This document shows, in pieces, positions 3,015 to 33,428 of a stretch of 64,000 nucleotides of DNA. The stretch spans positions 1-64,000 of the forward strand of contig JADLHW010000109.1 of NCBI GenBank assembly GCA_020848615.1, written 5' to 3'. The DNA comes from Thermoleophilia bacterium. Its GTDB lineage: Bacteria; Actinomycetota; Thermoleophilia; Miltoncostaeales; Miltoncostaeaceae. The notes under the pieces are model-generated. The model saw only the letters and a list, made by a program, of their open reading frames with translations, was not told the DNA's origin and searched no databases. How positions within the stretch are numbered: position 1 is the stretch's first letter; each line of letters opens with the position of its first letter. The position numbers and the translations under genes were made by a program.

Positions 3015-3629
3015 TCAGGACTCCGGGGCCGCGTCACCCCCGCGCTTCCGGCCGAGCTCCAGCTTCGGCTCGGCGTGCCGGAACAGGCGGCCCATGTTCG
3101 CGCGGTGGCGGACGATCACGGCGCCCGAGGCCAGCAGGGAGAACACCAGCACGGGCCACGGCTCGCCCAGCAGCAGCGCCCCGACGGGGAAGGCCACGGC
3201 CGCCGCGATGCTCGCGACCGACACGTACCGGGTGGCGGCGACCACCACGAGCCACGTCCCCAGCACGATGAGCGACACCAGCGGCACCAGGCCGATCACC
3301 GCGCCGCCGCCGACGGCGACGCCCTTGCCACCCTTGAACCGCAGCCACACCGGGAAGACGTGCCCCAGGATCGCCGCTCCGCCGGCCACCAGCGGCCACG
3401 GCGAGTCGGTGAGGGCCCGGGCGATGAGGGTGGCCGCCACGCCCTTGCCGATGTCGGCGACCATCACGGCGATGCCGATGCGCCGGCCGAGCGTGCGGAA
3501 CACGTTGGTGGCGCCCACGTTCTTGCTGCCCACCGTGCGGATGTCCACGCCCCTGGCGAGGCCCGCGAGGTACGCGAACGGGATGGATCCCAGCAGGTAG
3601 GCCAGCACCACGGCGACGGCCTGGTTCAC
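3015..3629 (-). CDS. plsY: acyl-phosphate:glycerol-3-phosphate acyltransferase PlsY
   Basis: Integral membrane enzyme of 204 residues transferring acyl groups from acyl phosphate to glycerol-3-phosphate, the first acylation step of phospholipid synthesis. Diagnostic PlsY motifs are GSIPFAYLAG near the N terminus, GSKNVGATNVFRTLG, and FKGGKGVAVGGG in the middle, set among about five to six hydrophobic segments. The start is a GTG whose first bases overlap the pgsA stop in a GTGA arrangement (bases 3626-3629), indicating translational coupling of two lipid genes. The basic C-terminal tail (ELGRKRGG) would face the cytoplasm. It is convergent with folE2, six bases apart. Confidence 0.93.
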   Translation of the reverse strand: MNQAVAVVLAYLLGSIPFAYLAGLARGVDIRTVGSKNVGATNVFRTLGRRIGIAVMVADIGKGVAATLIARALTDSPWPLVAGGAAILGHVFPVWLRFKGGKGVAVGGGAVIGLVPLVSLIVLGTWLVVVAATRYVSVASIAAAVAFPVGALLLGEPWPVLVFSLLASGAVIVRHRANMGRLFRHAEPKLELGRKRGGDAAPES

Positions 3630-4192
3630 GGGTCGCCTCCGACCTCGGTGTCCGGTGACTTGCGGGCGAACAGGCGGCGGTGCGCCATCACGAAGTAGTA
3701 CGCGCCGGACAGGACCGTGAGGACCACCGCGAGGTACATGAGCGGGTCGTTCACCGCCGTCCAGGGGTGCGGGGCGATCGCCGCGACGATCGCGATGTTC
3801 TGGCTGAAGGCCTTCGCCTTGCCGAGGCTGCCGGCCGGGATGATGAGGTCCTCGGTGACGGCCACCAGCCGCAGGCCGGTCACGGCGAACTCCCGCGTGA
3901 TGATGACCATCGTGATCCACGCGGGCACGTCGTCGAGCTGCACGAGGCACAGGAGGGCCCCGCTCACCAGCAGCTTGTCGGCGAGGGGGTCCAGGAACGC
4001 GCCGGCCACGGTCACCTGCCCGCGGGACCGCGCGAGGTAGCCGTCCAGGCTGTCGGTGGCGGCGGCGGCCCCGTACAGGGCGGCGGCCCACCAGCGCGCC
4101 GTCTCGGTGTCCACCAGGACCAGCGCCATGATCGCCGGGATCGTGCTGATCCTGACGGCGGTGACCCAGAGCGCCGCGTTCACGCGGCCCAT
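3626..4192 (-). CDS. pgsA: CDP-diacylglycerol-glycerol-3-phosphate phosphatidyltransferase
   Basis: Membrane CDP-alcohol phosphatidyltransferase making phosphatidylglycerol phosphate from CDP-diacylglycerol and glycerol-3-phosphate. The family signature is complete: DSLDGYLARSRG followed by GAFLDPLADK, supplying the four metal-binding aspartates in the DG-x2-AR-x8-G-x3-D-x3-D pattern at about residues 47-72. Several hydrophobic helices surround it. At 188 residues it has the usual length. It overlaps plsY by four bases and sits first in the two-gene operon. Other CDP-alcohol transferases (for example PIP synthase) share the signature, so the acceptor is inferred from length and the plsY pairing. 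Confidence 0.88.
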   Translation of the reverse strand: MGRVNAALWVTAVRISTIPAIMALVLVDTETARWWAAALYGAAAATDSLDGYLARSRGQVTVAGAFLDPLADKLLVSGALLCLVQLDDVPAWITMVIITREFAVTGLRLVAVTEDLIIPAGSLGKAKAFSQNIAIVAAIAPHPWTAVNDPLMYLAVVLTVLSGAYYFVMAHRRLFARKSPDTEVGGDP

Positions 4193-4238: not shown

Positions 4239-4769
4239 GTGAACGAGATCGCGGTGACGGCGGTCGGCGCGGACCGGCCGGGGATCGTGGCGGCCCTCAC
4301 GGAGGCGCTGCTCGGGCTCGGGGGGAACCTGGAGGACTGCCGGGCGGCGCTGCTGCGCGGCTCCTTCGCGGTGGCGCTGTTGGTGACGGTGCCGGACGGC
4401 GTGCCGGCCGAGCGCGTGGACGCCGCGCTGCGCCCCGTGGCGGAGCGTCTGGGCCTGGGGCTGTGGACGGGGCCGGCGTCGCCGCCGGACGACGCGTCGG
4501 CATGGGGCCCGCGGTGCGTGATCAGCGTGTACGGCGTGGACCACCCGGGCATCGTCCACGCGGTCACCGCGGCGCTCGCCCACACCGGCGCGAACATCGT
4601 CGACCTGTCGGCGCGGGCCGCCGGGCGCCCGCCGATCTACGCCCTGGCGATCGAGGTGGACCTGCCGGCCGGGGCGACGCCGGAGGCGATGGCCGCCGCC
4701 CTGCGGCCGGTCGCGGACCGCAACCGGGTGGAGCTGTCGGTCACCCCCGTCGCCGACGAGGTGATGTGA
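4239..4769 (+). CDS. tandem ACT-domain protein, GcvR-like
   Basis: A 176-residue protein of two ACT modules, each opening with the characteristic DRPGIVAALTEALLGLGGN (residues about 12-30) or DHPGIVHAVTAALAHTGAN motif. ACT pairs of this size bind amino acids and act as regulators, as in GcvR of the glycine cleavage system; there is no catalytic domain. It starts with GTG 46 bases after the divergent pgsA start and is followed 13 bases later by the deformylase-HD fusion, so the two may be co-transcribed. The ligand cannot be read from sequence, and a GcvR role is only the nearest family description. Confidence 0.78.
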   Translation: MNEIAVTAVGADRPGIVAALTEALLGLGGNLEDCRAALLRGSFAVALLVTVPDGVPAERVDAALRPVAERLGLGLWTGPASPPDDASAWGPRCVISVYGVDHPGIVHAVTAALAHTGANIVDLSARAAGRPPIYALAIEVDLPAGATPEAMAAALRPVADRNRVELSVTPVADEVM

Positions 4770-4782
4770 GCGGCGCCGGCCG

Positions 4783-5826
4783 GTGATCCGCGAGGTCCTG
4801 GTCTACCCGGACCGGCGGCTCAAGCAGCCGGCCGCGCCCGTCACCACGTTCGGCCCGGCGCTGCGCCGCCTCGCCGAGGACCTGCAGGACACGGCGCGCG
4901 CCTACCCGCGCACCGTCGGGCTGGCCGCCACCCAGATCGGGGCGATGTGGCGGGTGGTGCTCGTCGACTGCACGGACCACCCCAAGGTGCCGGACCCGCT
5001 GGGGCCGCTGGTGCTCGTGAACCCCGTGGTGGTGTCCGCGGAGGGCGCGGAGACCGGCCGGGAGGGCTGCCTGTCGCTGCCGGAGATCACCGCCGACGTC
5101 CGCCGTCCCGTGGCCATCGAGGTGGAGGCCGTGGACCCGGAGGGCGCGCCGCTGCGGTTCACCGCCGAGGGATTCGAGGCGCGGGTGGTGCTGCACGAGA
5201 TCGACCACCTGGACGGTGTGCTGATCCTCGACCGCGTCGCCTCCCTCGCCCGGGACGTGTTCCCCCGGCGGTCCGGGCGCGGCCGCCGCTCCCCCGGCGC
5301 CCTGCTGGTGGAGCGCGCCGCGACCCTGGCCCGCATCGCCCACGCCGGCCAGCGGTACGACGGCGACGATCCGTACACCGCCCACCTGGAGGAGGTGGTC
5401 GCCGCCCTGGGTGAGCACGGGGTGGACGATCCGCAGCTCATCGCCGCCGCGTGGCTCCACGACGTCGTGGAGGACACCCCGGTGGACGTCGAGGCGATCA
5501 CCCAGGAGTTCGGGGAGCGGATCGGGGGGATCGTCTCCGCGCTGACCGTCCCCGACCGGCCGGACCAGGACGCCGCCCGGCGCGACTCCTGGACCCGCAT
5601 CGCCGCGACCCCCGCCGCCGTGGCGGTGAAGCTCGGCGACCGCGTCGCGAACGTCCGTCGCGGCGGCCCGAAGGTCCGGAGGTACGAGGCGCAGCACCCG
5701 ACGTTCCGGGGGATCCTCACCGCTGCCGACGCCGGCGGCCTGGACGCGCAGGTCGCCCGGCTCTGGGCGACGCTGGAGTCCGCCCTGGCGGATGCGGGCG
5801 GGCCGGACCCGACGGCACGGCGGTGA
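4783..5826 (+). CDS. def: peptide deformylase fused to an HD hydrolase domain
   Basis: One 347-residue frame combines two enzymes. Residues 1-160 are peptide deformylase, which removes the formyl group from nascent proteins: motif 1 TVGLAATQ (44-51), motif 2 EGCLS with the metal cysteine C96, and motif 3 HEIDH with H138, E139 and H142. After a basic linker (RRSGRGRRS), residues 175-340 form an HD phosphohydrolase of the RelA/SpoT-MESH1 type: H187, the HD pair H226-D227 in AAWLHDVVEDTP, and a later KLGDRVANVR containing the distal aspartate. No synthetase or TGS domain is present. All visible catalytic residues are kept. The HD substrate, perhaps (p)ppGpp or NADPH as in MESH1 relatives, is inference. 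The GTG start is 13 bases after the ACT gene. Confidence 0.88.
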   Translation: MIREVLVYPDRRLKQPAAPVTTFGPALRRLAEDLQDTARAYPRTVGLAATQIGAMWRVVLVDCTDHPKVPDPLGPLVLVNPVVVSAEGAETGREGCLSLPEITADVRRPVAIEVEAVDPEGAPLRFTAEGFEARVVLHEIDHLDGVLILDRVASLARDVFPRRSGRGRRSPGALLVERAATLARIAHAGQRYDGDDPYTAHLEEVVAALGEHGVDDPQLIAAAWLHDVVEDTPVDVEAITQEFGERIGGIVSALTVPDRPDQDAARRDSWTRIAATPAAVAVKLGDRVANVRRGGPKVRRYEAQHPTFRGILTAADAGGLDAQVARLWATLESALADAGGPDPTARR

Positions 5827-5834
5827 GGTGAGCG

Positions 5835-6479
5835 GTGGGGACGCTGGGAGCCCTTCTGGAGGAGTACACCGGGTTGTTGCGCGCCAGCGGCAGCCCGACG
5901 CTGGACAGGATGCGCCCGGGCCACTCGCCGGAGCATGTGCGGGAACGGCTTCGTGCGGCCGGGGTGCCGCCGGCGGGTGAGCTGGTGGACTGGTTCAGCT
6001 GGTGTGACGGGGAGACCGGCCTGAAGCACCGGGAGTGGGGGGACTTCGAGCTGGCGCCCACATCGCTGGCCCCCGTGTCGCTGGAGGCGTCTCTGGACCG
6101 CCATCGGGTCGAGCAGCGAACCGACGCCGAGTACACGGTCTCGGAGTTCCTTGAGCCGCCGCAAACCGACCCCGACTATTGGTGGCCGCTGTCGTGGGTG
6201 GTGATCGCACGTGTCGAGCACACCCTGTTGGTCGCCGATGCGGCGGCGCCCGACGGTGTCCACTGCGTGGTGCGCAACGTGAGCCTGCTGGATCCGATCC
6301 TGGTGGGGACCTCGATCGAGGCGGTGGTCCGCTACTGGGTGCTGGCGCTTCGTGCGGGGTGTGCCCGGTGGGATCCGGGGCTGGACCGCTGGGTGTCGGA
6401 ACCGTCCGGGTCGCCACGCTGGCCTGCCCCGTTGGAGCCGGGGATCCTCTCCGAGCGGACCGGAACCCCACCCTCCTGA
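5835..6479 (+). CDS. SMI1/KNR4 (SUKH)-like protein
   Basis: A 214-residue acidic soluble protein. The layout LRAAGVPPAGELVDWFSWCDG, a central WWPLSWVVIA block and a late VVRYWVLALRAG segment resemble SUKH/SMI1-KNR4 proteins, known as immunity proteins against polymorphic toxins and as general binding modules. No toxin gene lies next to it: it begins eight bases after the deformylase-HD fusion and is followed by a 331-base stretch without a clear gene. Function is unassigned and the SUKH assignment rests on eye-level similarity only. Confidence 0.6.
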   Translation: MGTLGALLEEYTGLLRASGSPTLDRMRPGHSPEHVRERLRAAGVPPAGELVDWFSWCDGETGLKHREWGDFELAPTSLAPVSLEASLDRHRVEQRTDAEYTVSEFLEPPQTDPDYWWPLSWVVIARVEHTLLVADAAAPDGVHCVVRNVSLLDPILVGTSIEAVVRYWVLALRAGCARWDPGLDRWVSEPSGSPRWPAPLEPGILSERTGTPPS

Positions 6480-12052: not shown

Positions 12053-12307
12053 CTACCCCCCGGACACCGGCAGGATGAGCGCCACCCGGTCGCCGCCCGA
12101 CATGGGCGTGCCCGGCGCGATCCACCGGTCGTTCAGCGCGTACCGCAGCGCCGTGGGCGGCGCCGTCGACCGGATGGGCTCCGGGAGATGTGCCCACACC
12201 GCGCCCACCGGCGTGGCGGCGGGCACCCGGATCTGCAGCCGGTCGGTCCCCGCCGCCTCCTTCAGGGACGCGAACAGCATCACGGTCACGTCGATGTCGT
12301 CGGGCAT
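12053..12307 (-). CDS. moaD: molybdopterin synthase sulfur carrier subunit MoaD
   Basis: Ubiquitin-fold sulfur carrier of 84 residues. It begins DVTVMLFASLKEAAG, the usual first strand and loop of MoaD/ThiS, and ends exactly in Gly-Gly (LILPVSGG), whose terminal carboxylate is adenylated and thiolated. An upstream in-frame ATG at 12319 would add four residues (MVTG); neither start has a strong ribosome site. The gene is divergent from the first lysyl-oxidase-like gene, with 210 bases between. Confidence 0.92.
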   Translation of the reverse strand: MPDDIDVTVMLFASLKEAAGTDRLQIRVPAATPVGAVWAHLPEPIRSTAPPTALRYALNDRWIAPGTPMSGGDRVALILPVSGG

Positions 12308-12445
12308 CCCGGTGACCATAGCCGCTCGCGGCGCCTCGGGCCGCGCTCCGGGATTCCCCGCACTCCGACGACGGCGCACCACCGATGCCACGGCGCCCTT
12401 AACGAGTCCCTTACCGGGATCGGCTTGGCCACGCCGATCCGACTC

Positions 12446-12478
12446 GCCGAACGTCCAGTCGCGGACTCTCCGTTCGGC
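12446..12478. promoter_or_regulatory. inverted repeat upstream of first lysyl-oxidase-like gene
   Basis: Bases 12446-12453 (gccgaacg) and 12471-12478 (cgttcggc) form a perfect 8-base inverted repeat with a 17-base centre, 40 bases before the ATG. It could be an operator or a leader hairpin in the moaD/lysyl-oxidase divergent region. Confidence 0.35.
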
Positions 12479-12517
12479 CGAGGCGGCATTCCGGGCGCGA
12501 CCCCTAGGTTGACCGGT

Positions 12518-14470
12518 ATGACACGCCGCCGAAAGCTCGTCCTCAGCCTCGTCGCCAGCGCCGCCGCCGCGGCCGTGACGGTCCCCATCATCGCCAGCTC
12601 CGCGCCGGGCGACCCGCCGCGCCTCCCGGACCTGGTGAGCGACGCGCCCACCGGGCCGAGGTTCGACACCTACGACCCGGTGAACGGCGTCGCCCGCCTC
12701 CTGGTCCGGTTCGACGGCTACGTCCACAACGAGGGCGACGGCCCGCTCGACCTGCAGGGCAACCCGCAGCTGCCACTCGGCTCGCAGGGCGGCATGGACC
12801 AGTACCTCTGGAACGGCACCGGGGCGCGCGACAGCGACGCGTTCGGATCGAACGCCGCGTCGTGGACCCGGGTGACCGACCACCCGGTGAACCCGCTGGT
12901 GGTGTTCGACAGCTCCGACACCCACAACCACTGGCATGTCCAGCGGGCGGCCGAGTACTCCATGTGGAACGAGGCGAAGACGGCGATCGTGGCCCCGGCG
13001 AACAAGGTCGGGTTCTGCCAGTACGACAGCGAGCGGGTGAACTTCAGCAAGGGGCCCACGGGCCAGGTGTACGGCGACACCCTCACCGGCGACTTCTGCC
13101 GCCAGGACCAGCCCGGCGCCACGCAGCTGCGCGAGGGCATCAGCGAGGGCTACCGGGACATCTACGACTGGACGCTCGACTACCAGTGGATCGACGTCTC
13201 CAACGTCTCCCCGGGCATCTACCACCTCGCGGGCCGCATGGACCCCGACAACGTGTTCAAGGAGAAGGACGAGACCAACAACGGGTACGCGTTCTCCGCT
13301 CCGGTCACCATCCCCGGGTACCGGGCGGCGGCCGTCACGGCGAGCACCGCGTTCAAGACCCCCGTGCAGGTGACGCTCGCCGCCGACGCGTTCACCACGA
13401 TCTCGGGCTACGGGGTCGCCCTGGGCCCGCGGCGGTACCGCATCGAGTCGCTGCCCGCCGGCGGCATCCTGAAGAACGGGAACACGACGCTCAGCGTGGG
13501 CAGCGCGCTGCCCGCCGGGGTGACCGCGCTGCAGTACATCCCCAACACCAACTTCTCCGGCGTCGACTCGTTCCAGTTCTCGGCGATCGACACCAACAGC
13601 AGCTACCCGACCCAGCCCACCAGGGCGACCGCCTCGGTGACCGTCGGCGGCTCCGGTGCCACGGTCGTGAACCTCTCCGGCGCGCCCGGGCAGATGGTCG
13701 CCGGCACGCAGGTGCAGCTCACCGCCACCTCGTCCACCGGCGGCCCGCTGGTGTGGACCACGACCGGCGGCAGCATCACGGCCGCGGGCGTGCTCACGGC
13801 ACCCGACGCGGTGCCGGCCGGCGGCAGCATCACGGTGCGCGCCACGCTGGCCGACGACCTCGGAGCCTTCAAGGAGGTCGTGATCCCGATCGTGCCGGTG
13901 GGGACCCAAGTCCCGCAGCCGGTCGTCCCGCCGGTGGTCACCACGGCCGCGCTCTCCAAGCCCGGCGTGCTCACCTACCGCCGCAACGTCACGGTCACGG
14001 TCCAGATCAACCGGGGCGGCACGGTCGTCCTGAGCCTCACCCGCGGCGCCACGCGCCTGGACGCCTGCAGCACCAAGGCGCCGGCCGGCCAGACGGTGTC
14101 GTGCAAGTTCCAGCTCGCCAAGGCGTGGGACCCCGGCACGATCCGGGTGAACGCGAAGCTCACCACCGCCGACCGGAAGGTGTTCACCAGCTCCGCGACC
14201 GCCGGGCCCTCCAGCTACCGCAAGCTGGCGGTCCGTCGCAGCGGACGGCGGGTGTCCCTGGTCGTCACCCCGCAGCGCCCCGGATCGGTGAGCGTGATCC
14301 TCATGGCGCGCGGCAGGGTGGTGGGCCGGTGCGCCGGCCGGATCGCCCCGAACGCCTCGTTCACCTGCGCCCGCACCCTCGCCGCGACCGCGACGTCCGC
14401 GAAGGTGAAGGTGTTCGTGTCGTTCCGCGACCGGCAGGGCCGCATCGCGATCCGGGAGCTCGCCAAGTAG
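12518..14470 (+). CDS. secreted lysyl-oxidase-like protein with C-terminal Ig-type modules (copy A)
   Basis: A 650-residue exported protein. After a signal peptide (RRRKLVLSLVASAAAAA, cleavage near 30), residues 35-270 match the lysyl oxidase fold: the copper-binding H136-x-H138-x-H140 in SDTHNHWH, paired cysteines in VGFCQYD and GDFCRQ, and the GYRDIYDWTLDYQWID segment that carries candidate cofactor tyrosines. Lysyl oxidases oxidise lysine side chains to aldehydes and cross-link secreted proteins. A cadherin-like module (about 310-375, NTNFSGVDSFQFSAID) and Ig-like modules follow, ending in a basic Arg/Thr-rich tail with Cys pairs. A close paralogue follows 85 bases later. Activity is inferred from the histidine motif. 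Confidence 0.85.
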   Translation: MTRRRKLVLSLVASAAAAAVTVPIIASSAPGDPPRLPDLVSDAPTGPRFDTYDPVNGVARLLVRFDGYVHNEGDGPLDLQGNPQLPLGSQGGMDQYLWNGTGARDSDAFGSNAASWTRVTDHPVNPLVVFDSSDTHNHWHVQRAAEYSMWNEAKTAIVAPANKVGFCQYDSERVNFSKGPTGQVYGDTLTGDFCRQDQPGATQLREGISEGYRDIYDWTLDYQWIDVSNVSPGIYHLAGRMDPDNVFKEKDETNNGYAFSAPVTIPGYRAAAVTASTAFKTPVQVTLAADAFTTISGYGVALGPRRYRIESLPAGGILKNGNTTLSVGSALPAGVTALQYIPNTNFSGVDSFQFSAIDTNSSYPTQPTRATASVTVGGSGATVVNLSGAPGQMVAGTQVQLTATSSTGGPLVWTTTGGSITAAGVLTAPDAVPAGGSITVRATLADDLGAFKEVVIPIVPVGTQVPQPVVPPVVTTAALSKPGVLTYRRNVTVTVQINRGGTVVLSLTRGATRLDACSTKAPAGQTVSCKFQLAKAWDPGTIRVNAKLTTADRKVFTSSATAGPSSYRKLAVRRSGRRVSLVVTPQRPGSVSVILMARGRVVGRCAGRIAPNASFTCARTLAATATSAKVKVFVSFRDRQGRIAIRELAK

Positions 14471-14555
14471 CTCACACGATCCTCACATGCGGGGCGCGGA
14501 GTACTGGACCAATGGGCGGCGCGCCCCGCCGAAAGCCCCACCTACAGTGACCGGC

Positions 14556-16574
14556 ATGCAGAGACGCCGCCGACTCACACTCTCCCTGGTGGGCGCCGCA
14601 GCAGCGGTCGCCGTCACCGTCCCCCTCATCGCCGTCCAGGCCGGCCCGGGCAACGGTGCCCTGCTGCCGGACCTGGTCGCCGACCCGCCCGACAGCCCCG
14701 AGTTCAACGTCTACTCGGCCGGGTACGACAACTCCGCGCTGTTGCTGCGGTTCAACGGATACGTCCACAACGCCGGCGACGGCCCGCTGGACATCCAGGG
14801 GAACCCGCAGGCCAACGCGCCCGCCGGCACCGCCATCGACCAGTACCTGTCGAAGGTGCCCCCGAACGTCGCGGGTCCCGGCGGCACCACCATCCCCAAC
14901 CCGGCGCGTTCCTCGCTCGCGAGCGGCGCGACCGCCGGGAACTGGCAGCGGGTCACCGACAACAAGGACCCGAAGGTGGTGTTCGACAACTCGGACACCC
15001 ACAACCACTTCCACGTGTTGAAGGCGGCCGAGTACACCCTCTGGAACTCCACGAAGACCGCCCAGGTCGTCGCGGGGTCCAAGGTCGGGTTCTGCATGTA
15101 CGACAGCGAGGGCGACGACACGACGAACGGCCCGGCCGACACGGTGTACTCGGGGACCGTCGTCACCGACTTCTGCGACCAGGGCCAGCCCGGCGCCACG
15201 TTCCTGCGCGAGGGCGTGAGCGAGGGCTACCGCGACATCTACGACTCCTCGCTGGACGCCCAGTGGGTCGACGTGTCCAACGTCTCCCCGGGCGACTACT
15301 ACCTGGCCGCCCGCATGGACCCCGACGGGTACATCAAGGAGAAGGACGAGAACAACGGCTACACGTTCTCGGTCGCTCCCGTGCGCGTGCCCGGGTACCG
15401 GGCCGACGCCGTCACGGCGGCCACCGGCTTCCGCGTCGGGAAGAGCTTCGCCCTCACGAGCACCGCGTTCGCGCCCACCACGCCCATCGGCACCGGCGGG
15501 GCGCCCAGCGGGTACGCGGGCCTCGGCACCGTGCGGTACCGCGTGGAGACGCTCCCCGCGAACGGCACGCTGCGCAACGGCACGGCCGCCGTCACCGCCG
15601 GCACCACGCTGCCGGCCGGCGTGAACCAGCTGAACTACACGCCGGGCAACAACTTCAGCGGCCAGGACGGCTTCGTGTTCTCCGCCGTGAACTACGTGAA
15701 CGGCGCGCCCACCAAGTACCCGGTGCAGCCCGCCAAGGCCACCGCCACCATCAACGTGGGCGGCTCCGGCATCGTCGTGAACGTGTCCGGCATCCCCGGC
15801 CAGATGGTCGTGGGCACGCAGGCCCAGTTCACCGGCTCGGCGAGCAGCGGTGCCATCACGTGGACCGTCGACGGCGTCGCCGGTGGGAACGCCACCGTGG
15901 GCACCGTCACCGCGGGCGGCCTGTACACCGCGCCGGCGAGCGTGCCGGCGGGCGGCAAGGTCACCGTCCAGGCCGTCTCCACCGAGGACGTGGGCACGAA
16001 GTCCGCCCCGGTGACCGTGAACATCGTCGCCAACGGGACCTCCGGTCCCAAGCCCATCATCACGGGCACGGTGAGGAAGCCGGGCGTCCTGGCCGTGGGC
16101 CGCAACGTGACGATCAGCGTGAAGGTGCCGTCCAGCGGCACGATCACCCTGTCGCTGCTGCGGGGCCGCGCCCGGCTGGGCCGCTGCGTCACCAAGGTCA
16201 CGGCGGGCCAGACGGCGACCTGCAAGCTGCGGATGTCGAAGCCGTACGACCCCGGCACCCTGCGGGTCACCTCGGTGTTCAAGAGCCGCGGGAAGACCAC
16301 CCGCGGCAGCGTCTCCGCGGGCGGCAGCAGCTTCAACCGCGTGTCCCTCAGGCGGCGGGGCGGCAGGGTCACCCTGTCGGTGGTCCCCAAGCGGCCCGGC
16401 ATCGTGCGCGTCGCGATCACCCGCCGCGGCCGCGTCGTGGGGCAGTGCACCGGCCGCGTGCTGGCCGGCCGGACCCTCACCTGCAGCCGCTCCGTCGGCC
16501 GCGGCGGGGTGAGCCTGTCGATCAGCCTGAAGGACGAGCAGGGCCGGCTGGTCATCCGGCAGGCGAGCCTCTAG
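14556..16574 (+). CDS. secreted lysyl-oxidase-like protein with C-terminal Ig-type modules (copy B)
   Basis: A 672-residue paralogue of the preceding gene with the same order: signal peptide (LTLSLVGAAAAVAV), lysyl oxidase domain with H149-x-H151-x-H153 in SDTHNHFH, cadherin-like module (NFSGQDGFVFSAVN), Ig-like module (GQMVVGTQAQFTG), and basic C-terminal repeats. It carries an extra insertion at about 98-122 (PPNVAGPGGTTIPNPARSS). Even the start regions match (gaccgg just before both ATGs), so this is a tandem duplication that has diverged. Two copies may act on different substrates or form a heteromer. A hairpin resembling a terminator follows the stop. Confidence 0.85.
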   Translation: MQRRRRLTLSLVGAAAAVAVTVPLIAVQAGPGNGALLPDLVADPPDSPEFNVYSAGYDNSALLLRFNGYVHNAGDGPLDIQGNPQANAPAGTAIDQYLSKVPPNVAGPGGTTIPNPARSSLASGATAGNWQRVTDNKDPKVVFDNSDTHNHFHVLKAAEYTLWNSTKTAQVVAGSKVGFCMYDSEGDDTTNGPADTVYSGTVVTDFCDQGQPGATFLREGVSEGYRDIYDSSLDAQWVDVSNVSPGDYYLAARMDPDGYIKEKDENNGYTFSVAPVRVPGYRADAVTAATGFRVGKSFALTSTAFAPTTPIGTGGAPSGYAGLGTVRYRVETLPANGTLRNGTAAVTAGTTLPAGVNQLNYTPGNNFSGQDGFVFSAVNYVNGAPTKYPVQPAKATATINVGGSGIVVNVSGIPGQMVVGTQAQFTGSASSGAITWTVDGVAGGNATVGTVTAGGLYTAPASVPAGGKVTVQAVSTEDVGTKSAPVTVNIVANGTSGPKPIITGTVRKPGVLAVGRNVTISVKVPSSGTITLSLLRGRARLGRCVTKVTAGQTATCKLRMSKPYDPGTLRVTSVFKSRGKTTRGSVSAGGSSFNRVSLRRRGGRVTLSVVPKRPGIVRVAITRRGRVVGQCTGRVLAGRTLTCSRSVGRGGVSLSISLKDEQGRLVIRQASL

Positions 16575-30449: not shown

Positions 30450-33428
30450 ATGACCGGGGACGGGGGCGCTCCCGTCGCCGTCGCCGACGCGGCGCCCCCC
30501 GCACGGGGCGCCCGCGGCGGCGGCGTCGCCTCCCAGACCGCGCTCATCCTGGGGGCGCGCGTGGTGGGCGCGATCTCCACCGCGGTCATCACGATCGTCC
30601 TCACGCGCCTGCTGGGCGTCGCCGGGTACGGCGACTACGCGCTGGCGCTCACCATCGCGACGATCGCCGGGCTGTTCGCCTCCCTGGGCGTCGACTCGGC
30701 CACCTCCCGGTGGGTCGCGGAGGGCTACAACCGCGGGGAGGCGGTGTGGATCGCCGTGCGCGTGGGCCTGCGGCTGCGTGCGCTGCTGGCGGGGGTCACG
30801 TTCGGCCTTTTGTTCCTGCTCGCCGGTCCCATCGCCCACCTGTTCGGGCACCCCGGCCTGGCGAACGCCGTCCGCGCCGCGACGGTCGCGCTGTGCTTCA
30901 GCGCGGGCTTCTCATGGGTGAGCGGCGTCTTCGAGGGGCTCCGCAGCGGCGTCATGCTCGCGGTGGTCTCGCTGGTGAAGGCCGTCGTGGAGTTCGTGGT
31001 CGTCGTGGGCCTGCTGGTCGCCGGGTTCGGCGCCGTGGGGGCGCTGCTCGGCAACGCCGCGAGCTACGCGGTCGCCGTCGGCGTGGGCATGTACGCGATG
31101 CGATCGCACCTGGTGCGCAGCGAGGCGCCGTCCGCGACGGTGAGCGGCCAGGAGCTCCTGAAGTACGGCATCCACATCTGGCTGGCGGGGGTCGCGTGGC
31201 TCCTGTTCGAGCGCGTCGACCTGGTGCTGCTGGGCGCCTTCCTCGACACCACGGCCGTCGGCCTCTACGACGCCCCATGGCGCATCGCCACCATCCTCGG
31301 ACTGCTGGGCCTGAGCCTCGCCTCCGCGGTGACGCCGCGCCTGGCGTCGCAGGACGCCATGTCCGCCGGGCGGCTGCTCACGAAGGCGCTGCGCGTGGGC
31401 CTCGTGTTCTACATCCTGCTGTCGGTCATCATCGCGGTGGCCGCGCGGGACATCATCGTGCTGCTGCTGGGCGAGGACTACGCGCGCAGCGCGGACGTCC
31501 TCCGGATCCTGCTGCCGTACATCATCCTCATCGGCTTCGCGCCGATCGTGTCCCGGGCCCTCGACTACCTGGGCGGCGCCGCCGTCCGGAAGTGGATCGC
31601 GCTCGCGGCGTTCGTCGTGAACCTGGCGCTCGACCTGGTGCTCATCCCCACGGTCGGGCTGCTGGGCCCGGCGATCGCCACCGGCGTGGCGATCCTCGTG
31701 TTCGTCGCCGGCCACCTCATGCTCGTGGTCCGCCAGGCCCACCTCGACAACCGCCGGTTGCTCGCCACGATCGCGCGGTCGCTGGGCTCGGCCGCGGCGG
31801 GCGGGGCGTTCTACTGGGCCCTCATCGTGCTGGACGTGCCCCCCGTGGTCCGGCTGCTCGCCGGGTTCCCGCTGGCCGTCGGTGTCGCCGTGGTCATGCT
31901 CATCGGGGTCGGGGAGGTGCGCGACGAGTCGGGCATCCCCCCGTCCATCGCCGTGCGGCTGCGCGCCATCGACGATTGGTTCGCCCGCCACCTCGACGGC
32001 ATCACGCCGCGCGACCTGGCGCTGCTGGTGCCCATCCTCGCCGCGGCCCTCGTGATGGGCCTGGCGGTGGGGAGGAACCCGCTCATCGCCGTCGGCGGCC
32101 TGGTGGCGATCGCCGTGGTCACGCTGCTGCTGTCGGACCTCACGATCGGCGTGGTCGCGTTCGTGCTCATCCAGCCGCTGGCGCTGGTGATCCCCGCCGG
32201 GGAGGCCGTGGTCGCCAAGGGCGCCGGGGTGATCCTCATGGTCACGTGGGCCGTGGCGCTGCGGTACCGCAGCTCCCGCGGCAAGTACCTGGGGTTCGTC
32301 GCCAGCAACGCCCCGGTGGTGTTCCTCATCGTGGCGTTCATGGGCTGGCTGGTCGCGTCGCTGCTGTGGTCCATCAACACCGCGGCGTCCATCGACGCGA
32401 TCCAGCGGTACGCCCTGGGATTCGTGCTGCTGGGCATCGTGTTCACCGCGACGTTCGACCGGGGCGCGGCGATCCGGGTGGCGGGGGCCTTCTCGCTCAG
32501 CGGCGGGCTGTCGACGCTCCTCGGGCTGGCGATGAACCGCCGGGGCGACGAGGGCCGCTTCATCGGCACGTTCCTGGACGCGAACGAGTACGCGGCGTTC
32601 TGCGTGCCGTCGCTGCTCATCGCCGTGGCGCTCGCCGCCTCGGCCTCCACGCCGCTGCGGCGCATCGCGTTCCTCAGCACGGCGCTGCTGTGCGGCGCCG
32701 GCATCGTGTTGTCCGGCTCCCGCGGGGGCATCATCGCGATCGGCGCGGCGCTGGCCGTGTGGATCGTGTTCGGCGGCCGGTGGCGCGTGCGGGTGCTGGT
32801 GGCGAGCATCGCCGTGGTGTTCGTGCTGGTGGGCTACATCGAGACGGCCGCGTCACCGGCGCTGCGGACGCGCATCGAGACCGTCTACAAGGGGCAGCAG
32901 TTCGGCACCAGCGCCGGCACGGGGCGCGCCGACATCTGGCAGGTGGGCCTGCGCGTGTATCGCGCCCACCCCGCGGTGGGGACGGGCACCGGCACGTTCA
33001 CGGACGCCACGCCGCGCTACCTCGCGCAGGCGGGCCTGGTGCGGCGCCTCGACTTCTTCACCGAGACGCCGAAGGTCGCGCACAACATGTACCTGCACCT
33101 GCTGGTGGAGGTCGGGATCGTGGGCCTCGCCCTGTTCGGCGGGCTCCTGCTGGCCTGCGTCGCCGCCGCGATACGCGCCGCATGGTTGTTCCGCCGCACC
33201 GGCGACGTGACCATGGAGCTGCTGTCGCGGACCGTGGCGGCCGGCAGCGTGGGCCTCCTGGTGGCCGACTTCTTCATCTCCGCGCAGTACCAGCGGGTGC
33301 TGTGGATCCTCATGGGCATCTGCCTGGCGCTGTACGGCGTCGCCCGCCGTCAGGCGTCGGTGCGCGCCCCGGAGCCCGGTGGGCCCGCCTGGGCTCCCGA
33401 CGCCCGCAGGACCGCGCGCACCCCCTGA
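30450..33428 (+). CDS. fused Wzx-type flippase and O-antigen ligase/polymerase
   Basis: A 992-residue integral membrane protein combining two activities usually coded separately. Residues 25-480 are a polysaccharide flippase of the MATE/Wzx type: LILGARVVGAISTAVITIVL at the start, GYGDYALALTIA, FERVDLVLLGAF, and alternating helices to about residue 475. A short amphipathic linker (AIDDWFARHLDGITPRDL) leads to residues 525-970, a second helix set with the O-antigen ligase/Wzy signature: LSGSRGGIIAIGAALAVWIV, GTGRADIWQVGLRVYRAHPAVGTGTGTF, and AHNMYLHLLVEVGIVGL. It would flip lipid-linked units and polymerise or ligate them. Thirty-six bases separate it from the Wzz-like gene upstream. Confidence 0.87.
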   Translation: MTGDGGAPVAVADAAPPARGARGGGVASQTALILGARVVGAISTAVITIVLTRLLGVAGYGDYALALTIATIAGLFASLGVDSATSRWVAEGYNRGEAVWIAVRVGLRLRALLAGVTFGLLFLLAGPIAHLFGHPGLANAVRAATVALCFSAGFSWVSGVFEGLRSGVMLAVVSLVKAVVEFVVVVGLLVAGFGAVGALLGNAASYAVAVGVGMYAMRSHLVRSEAPSATVSGQELLKYGIHIWLAGVAWLLFERVDLVLLGAFLDTTAVGLYDAPWRIATILGLLGLSLASAVTPRLASQDAMSAGRLLTKALRVGLVFYILLSVIIAVAARDIIVLLLGEDYARSADVLRILLPYIILIGFAPIVSRALDYLGGAAVRKWIALAAFVVNLALDLVLIPTVGLLGPAIATGVAILVFVAGHLMLVVRQAHLDNRRLLATIARSLGSAAAGGAFYWALIVLDVPPVVRLLAGFPLAVGVAVVMLIGVGEVRDESGIPPSIAVRLRAIDDWFARHLDGITPRDLALLVPILAAALVMGLAVGRNPLIAVGGLVAIAVVTLLLSDLTIGVVAFVLIQPLALVIPAGEAVVAKGAGVILMVTWAVALRYRSSRGKYLGFVASNAPVVFLIVAFMGWLVASLLWSINTAASIDAIQRYALGFVLLGIVFTATFDRGAAIRVAGAFSLSGGLSTLLGLAMNRRGDEGRFIGTFLDANEYAAFCVPSLLIAVALAASASTPLRRIAFLSTALLCGAGIVLSGSRGGIIAIGAALAVWIVFGGRWRVRVLVASIAVVFVLVGYIETAASPALRTRIETVYKGQQFGTSAGTGRADIWQVGLRVYRAHPAVGTGTGTFTDATPRYLAQAGLVRRLDFFTETPKVAHNMYLHLLVEVGIVGLALFGGLLLACVAAAIRAAWLFRRTGDVTMELLSRTVAAGSVGLLVADFFISAQYQRVLWILMGICLALYGVARRQASVRAPEPGGPAWAPDARRTARTP

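Follow-up and report, generated by a model that had tools for sequence, protein, structure and literature searches.

MESH1-type enzymes, structural relatives of the hydrolase considered here, have several possible substrates, namely (p)ppGpp, (p)ppApp or NADPH (PMC9765508). MESH1 has also been reported as a CoA 3'-phosphatase (PMC13221220). Small alarmone hydrolases (SAHs) encoded by phages are on record as well, with functions presented as hypotheses (PMC12846349). A survey of the RSH enzymes distinguishes seven SAH groups and uses neither the word 'deformylase' nor the word 'phage' (PMC3153485). Text searches of the open-licence literature returned nothing on a peptide deformylase (PDF) fused to an HD hydrolase. 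Such a gene is present in the window, the 64,000-nucleotide stretch of contig JADLHW010000109.1 analysed here, which comes from a Thermoleophilia bacterium of the family Miltoncostaeaceae (G000). We found the same architecture in three further genomes, one of the same genus (G001) and two of one other genus in the same family (G004 and G015).

The fusion gene (4783..5826, forward strand) starts with GTG, ends at the stop codon 5824-5826 and encodes 347 amino acids in a frame with no internal stops. The Pfam scan recognizes two domains: Pep_deformylase covers residues 2-156 (E 4.6e-43; 146.9 bits, cut-off 22.8), and HD_4 spans residues 179-291 (E 9.4e-13; 48.6 bits, cut-off 27.2). On the same strand, the protein divides into a deformylase-paralogue domain (residues 1-158, 4783..5256), a junction with linker (residues 159-172, 5257..5298) and a MESH1/SAH-like HD hydrolase domain (residues 173-347, 5299..5823). 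The two halves have similar GC3 values (PDF 0.98, HD 0.96), which is expected for a single coding frame. A two-ACT-domain protein of 176 amino acids is encoded directly upstream (4239..4769, forward strand), and 13 bases (4770-4782) separate its stop from the start of the fusion. A sequence-only reading of this DNA had described both enzyme cores in one unbroken 347-residue frame behind an ACT pair, and its coordinates, its 13-base gap and its positions for the deformylase residues C96 and H138-E139-x2-H142 and for H226-D227 of the HD half are correct. The fusion of two enzymes that it proposed is genuine, with both apparently intact as judged by their residues, while one histidine of the HD half had been misassigned, as discussed below.

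The deformylase half retains most of what defines the family. Its three motifs lie, on the forward strand, at 4912..4935 (motif I, T44-V-G-L-A-A-T-Q51), 5062..5076 (motif II, E94-G-C96-L-S98) and 5194..5208 (motif III, H138-E139-I-D-H142). It passes the NCBIfam peptide-deformylase cut-offs of NF001159 (129.5, cut-off 125) and TIGR00079 (112.2, cut-off 103.95), and its best sequence match in the PDB is 3qu1, 'Peptide deformylase 2' (E 3.7e-30). A predicted full-length model built from deformylase rows only is good over residues 1-160 (pLDDT 91-99 per ten-residue block) and poor over the HD half. Residues G46, Q51, E94, G95, C96, H138, E139 and H142 are invariant in 33 PDF rows, and the metal ligands C96, H138 and H142, the catalytic E139 and Q51 are kept at all 80 deformylase loci compared. 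Motif I departs from its consensus, G-x-G-x-A-A-x-Q, at the first G, which is replaced by T44, and the remainder is kept. In the family's paralogues, the first residue of the printed motifs is T wherever the pattern matched. The window's genome encodes a second deformylase (G000:C3:11411) with the canonical motif GVGLAAPQ, and by sequence the deformylase half of the fusion is a paralogue and not the housekeeping copy. Given that the half is a paralogue, that a canonical copy is present and that motif I departs at one position, deformylation of nascent proteins by the fusion is not assured.

The upstream gene extends this picture beyond the family. Pfam matches its product in two stretches each with ACT_6 (E 4.6e-22) and ACT (E 9.4e-10); formyltetrahydrofolate deformylase is among its weak hits. 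It falls below the NCBIfam cut-offs of PRK00194 (59.4 against 74 bits, E 3.3e-16) and PRK11589 (45.4 against 267), and the term GcvR-like, as we apply it here, denotes an apparent resemblance only; an ACT relative encoded next to a different ACT-linked paralogue (L187) scores above the PRK00194 cut-off, with 103.4. Among the 30 loci of relatives (L085-L114, window included), a two-ACT gene adjoins the deformylase paralogue in 28, the match at L112 being partial, and at the two loci that lack it (L113 and L114) the deformylase clusters, in the tree, with the canonical copy. The divergent neighbour on the other side, a pgsA-like CDP-alcohol phosphatidyltransferase gene (3626..4192, reverse strand; Pfam CDP-OH_P_transf, E 1.8e-37), adjoins the ACT-deformylase pair in many relatives too and anchors the synteny. 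The 80 deformylase loci from genome_contigs include at least 27 with an upstream ACT gene, a lower bound given that some loci have little upstream DNA. The titles of the ACT-linked loci name Gammaproteobacteria, Omnitrophota, Nitrospinota, Deltaproteobacteria, Sericytochromatia, Elusimicrobium, Actinomycetota and Mariprofundus, among others. In 20 of these 27 copies the first Gly of motif I is replaced by A, C or S (it is G in the other 7), whereas it is present in all 53 deformylases without an ACT match; the count of 20 takes in related sequences and reflects one or a few events rather than 20 independent ones. In E. coli deformylase this Gly borders the substrate groove, so a changed substrate is possible for the ACT-linked paralogues. 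Text searches of open-licence literature returned no description of the ACT-deformylase pair, and this two-gene unit of a two-ACT protein and a deformylase paralogue with altered motif I, present across several phyla, is a wider lead.

The joint lies just beyond the usual C-terminus of the paralogue. Unfused paralogues of the family end at 'DVFPRRR' or a similar sequence followed by a stop, and in the fusions this point is followed by a linker of about a dozen residues and then by the position that matches the start of free HD proteins. The junction is common to the window, G001, G004 and G015, and the linker is unbroken in all four. The gene thus reads as an end-to-end fusion of two complete proteins. 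Eight bases past the fusion stop begins a frame for 214 amino acids (5835-6479, forward strand), which has no Pfam or NCBIfam match and no tblastn match around the fusion in G001, G004 or G015.

The catalytic residues of the HD half were compared across 59 rows made up of the HD half and viral relatives. H201 (5383..5385), a predicted metal ligand, H226, D227, E230 and D231 of the HD and ED motifs (H226-D227-V-V-E230-D231, 5458..5475), K283, and D286 and N290, the last metal ligand and a conserved Asn (5638..5652; all on the forward strand), are invariant in these rows. All of them are also kept in the four fusions, except for N290, which is replaced in G004. H187, which the sequence-only reading had listed among the HD residues, is nearly invariant (at least 90% of the 59 rows). 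The predicted metal ligand is instead H201, located in 'PYTAH': it aligns with the histidine of 'PYITH' in Rel, which is a metal ligand in the Rel and MESH1 structures. The best PDB sequence matches of the HD half are Rel (5xnx, E 6e-16) and MESH1 (3nr1, 1.6e-7). Its AlphaFold model has a pLDDT of 93.6 and, in the Foldseek and VIA-align comparisons, superimposes on human MESH1 (5vxa; Z 19.8, rmsd 2.4, 163 residues) and on the SAH of P. aeruginosa (6yvc; Z 19.8, rmsd 2.2, 162 residues). Most other SAHs reach Z 17.9-19.7. SpoT and Rel follow from about 16.5, level with the SAH entries 7smg (16.2, 135 residues) and 7p1y (16.1), and other HD proteins score 12.6 and below. Viral structures in BFVD also match the model, some of them annotated as HD or (p)ppGpp hydrolases.

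No synthetase domain (RelA_SpoT) was found in the fusion chain by the Pfam scan. Each fused genome has one PF04607 alarmone synthetase domain, inside the long Rel, and no small alarmone synthetase, and none of the four encodes another small HD_4 protein; the fusion is thus an orphan SAH. For another orphan SAH, XccSAH, cleavage of (pp)pGpp, pppApp and NADPH is described in PMC9765508. Of the family's 33 unfused genomes, 25 encode a further small HD_4 protein, against 0 of the 4 fused ones. The idea that the fusion substitutes for a free SAH is weak, given that the four fused genomes are related and that 8 unfused genomes also lack a small HD_4 protein.

We built an HD profile (A2) from the four fusion HD halves and two genes of a further relative, G025. 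In 299 genomes of the class, it gave 225-279 bits on its own six members and at most 102 on everything else, Rel included, and in 396 genomes of the phylum, only the fusions drawn in that sample reached at least 200 bits. Relatives in viral contigs were numerous in the profile scan (425 stretches), the best sharing 42% identity with the greater part of the HD half; a viral scan with the HD half alone, without the profile, found no relative, and a scan of genome_contigs with the whole protein returned deformylases only. The HD half is 38.8% identical to a Nodularia phage protein; a homologue from Nodularia phage is neighboured by genes for thymidylate synthase, dUTPase and methyltransferases. 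A plasmid of Miltoncostaea oceani (NZ_CP064357.1) carries an HD gene (181531-182004) that matches 90% of the HD half at 40.9% identity. Near this gene, the 815-kb plasmid also has genes annotated as RNA ligase, CHAP domain and tail fiber domain (175540-188061), and it may contain phage-derived DNA. The phage family phrog_990 matches the HD half (E 2e-32). This match was set aside as proof of a phage origin, given that a chromosomal SAH from Miltoncostaeaceae matches the same profile at 2.3e-29.

In a quick tree of 110 rows, the four fusions form one clade (support 99) inside a group of 34 rows (99) with 28 viral sequences and 2 plasmid genes of M. oceani. A careful tree of 51 HD rows again unites them (100/99) and nests them in a 25-row clade (99/96) that also contains 3 plasmid rows and 18 viral ones, of which 17 come from IMG/VR and one from a Nodularia phage. 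Rel is separated as a clade of its own, the small hydrolases encoded on the family's chromosomes fall elsewhere, and both trees speak against the idea that the HD half derives from the genome's own Rel or from these hydrolases. Phages or plasmids are the best reading of its source that this biased sample allows, in which the viral contigs were collected by means of a profile built from the same HD domains, the bacteria outside Actinomycetota comprised 8 genomes and a plasmid collection, and bacterial kin in other phyla are undersampled. The HD trees, together with the Rel rows of the quick tree, where G000 groups with G004 and G015, point to a single origin of the fusion. The deformylase tree gives monophyly of the fused halves a support of 38.

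Among 61 genomes (own, genus, family and class), the full-length relatives of the fusion are those of G001 (81% identity), G004 (61%) and G015 (61%). The fusion occurs in 4 of 399 genomes of the class and in 3 of 396 genomes of the phylum, the latter being the same lineages with G001 not drawn. An 80% coverage of the query was reached by none of 255 matching phage records and none of 886 plasmid records. No deformylase was found at 80 viral HD loci, nor did any of the 80 genome_contigs loci with a deformylase show the HD domain. In 200 genomes sampled from the phylum to which a Thioalkalivibrio-titled genome belongs, a search at E 1e-60 that included no positive control yielded none. The fusion is therefore rare, confined in our samples to two genera, and inherited. 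Comparing G000 with G001, the dN/dS (Nei-Gojobori) is about 0.28 for the HD half and 0.17 for the PDF half; the pair G004 and G015 gives 0.33 and 0.39, respectively. Between genera it is 0.49-0.64 for the HD half and 0.33-0.48 for the PDF half, but G or C occupies 95-98% of third positions, which distorts dS. Selection thus constrains the HD half.

Two other loci in the window encode large proteins, recorded here as observations. The frame 30450-33428 (forward strand, 992 amino acids) combines an N-terminal Polysacc_synt domain (E 1.2e-24) with a C-terminal Wzy_C domain (E 3.7e-22) and looks like a flippase-ligase fusion. Two adjacent large proteins (12188-14470 and 14487-16574, forward strand) each carry a lysyl-oxidase-type domain (E 8.8e-11 and 5.4e-14), which is unexpected for a bacterium.

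We propose, at an even balance of belief and doubt, that the gene encodes a bifunctional enzyme in which a 3'-(pyro)phosphohydrolase is tethered to the deformylase paralogue. In the ancestor of the two genera of Miltoncostaeaceae, an entire MESH1-like hydrolase gene, whose type is sampled today chiefly from phages and plasmids, would have been joined through a linker to the end of the paralogue. The HD half would act as a metal-dependent 3'-(pyro)phosphohydrolase on (p)ppGpp, (p)ppApp or a related 3'-phosphorylated nucleotide; both halves are probably co-expressed with the ACT protein, which perhaps regulates them. The basis consists of the fusion itself, its inheritance, the intact catalytic residues, the folds, the ancestry and the gene order, and from these we infer activity in both halves, their substrates, control by the ACT protein and any link to translation. 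Domain fusions often point to functional partners, and if both halves are active, the protein would physically tie deformylation, or whatever the ACT-linked paralogue does, to the turnover of alarmone-type nucleotides. Against the bifunctional reading stand the absence of the first motif I Gly from the paralogue and the retention of a canonical deformylase by the genome, the replacement of N290 in G004, the higher dN/dS of the HD half between genera (on a dS biased by the G/C third positions) and the occurrence in only four genomes of two genera, which leaves room for a neutral joining. The altered motif also suits a somewhat different arrangement, which we consider on the unlikely side, in which the hydrolase works and the paralogue acts on another N-formyl compound, such as a formylated amino acid or a small peptide, so that the protein would belong to amino-acid or one-carbon metabolism and not to translation. 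The loss of the Gly in ACT-linked copies alone, with the ligands intact, the canonical deformylase elsewhere in the genome and a GcvR-like partner with weak matches to formyltetrahydrofolate deformylase are all consistent with it, although the half still passes both peptide-deformylase cut-offs and the kinship of the sequences reduces the weight of the 20 replacements. That the halves share no function at all, a mobile hydrolase gene having landed behind the paralogue and the stop having been lost, is improbable in our view: the join of the paralogue's natural C-terminus to the hydrolase's natural start and the mere four carriers are what such an accident would leave, but two genera have kept the fused state at 61% identity, the HD half is under constraint and the linker is unbroken in every case.

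More specific scenarios are harder to sustain. The HD half could serve as a guard of translation or in immunity, clearing the toxic (p)ppApp or pyrophosphorylated tRNA that invading toxins or phage systems produce, with the deformylase placing it near the ribosome. We regard this idea as very doubtful. Phage and plasmid genes are its closest relatives in the sample, SAHs can neutralize the products of toxic alarmone synthetases (PMC11782079 and PMC12226406) and the phage-encoded SAHs mentioned above have hypothesized roles (PMC12846349); Rel, however, is the only synthetase in the genome, and PADLOC matched 0 families with the whole protein and with the HD half. A related conjecture, to which we give little credence, is an ACT-deformylase-alarmone hydrolase module whose deformylase part keeps the 3'-pyrophosphohydrolase near the ribosome for local clearance of alarmones or pyrophosphorylated tRNA under ACT control; if true, it would couple N-terminal processing directly to stress-nucleotide turnover by means of a phage-type hydrolase. 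All four genes have a GTG at most a few codons away from where the HD domain begins, and an internal start near residue 176 could in principle yield a separate HD protein, yet valine is mostly encoded by GTG in that stretch, so the codon is expected there, and the full frame is open; we regard two products as highly improbable. A sequencing frame error, which the sequence-only reading had named as one way its fusion might fail, has a negligible chance: the source genome is in 183 contigs, but the same fusion in three further genomes, across two genera, leads us to reject an assembly or frame error, and an HD gene follows the deformylase in none of the 26 other loci (L089-L114).

The fusion combines two known families in a new way. 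Like peptide deformylases (PF01327), it has the fold, the three motifs and the residues Q51, C96, H138, E139 and H142, and it differs from them in having T in place of motif I's first Gly, an ACT gene as partner and a hydrolase at the C-terminus. With the small alarmone hydrolases and MESH1 (5vxa, 3nr1, 6yvc and 7qod), the HD half shares the whole fold (Z 18-20 over 162-165 residues), the metal ligands and the ED motif, whereas it sits behind a deformylase and in a branch rich in phage and plasmid sequences. The HD half of the long Rel/SpoT proteins has the same catalytic residues, and Rel 5xnx is the best PDB match by sequence, but the fusion chain lacks the synthetase, TGS and ACT domains and falls in a clade separate from the genome's Rel. 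The similarity to phrog_990, annotated 'metal-dependent phosphohydrolase', and to the Nodularia phage proteins is limited to the HD domain, as the phage proteins have no deformylase, and the M. oceani HD gene is, in contrast to the fusion, stand-alone, 157 amino acids long in its product and plasmid-borne. Compared with these systems, the fusion offers a case of a phage- or plasmid-type hydrolase, as the trees suggest it to be, fixed within a conserved host gene pair.
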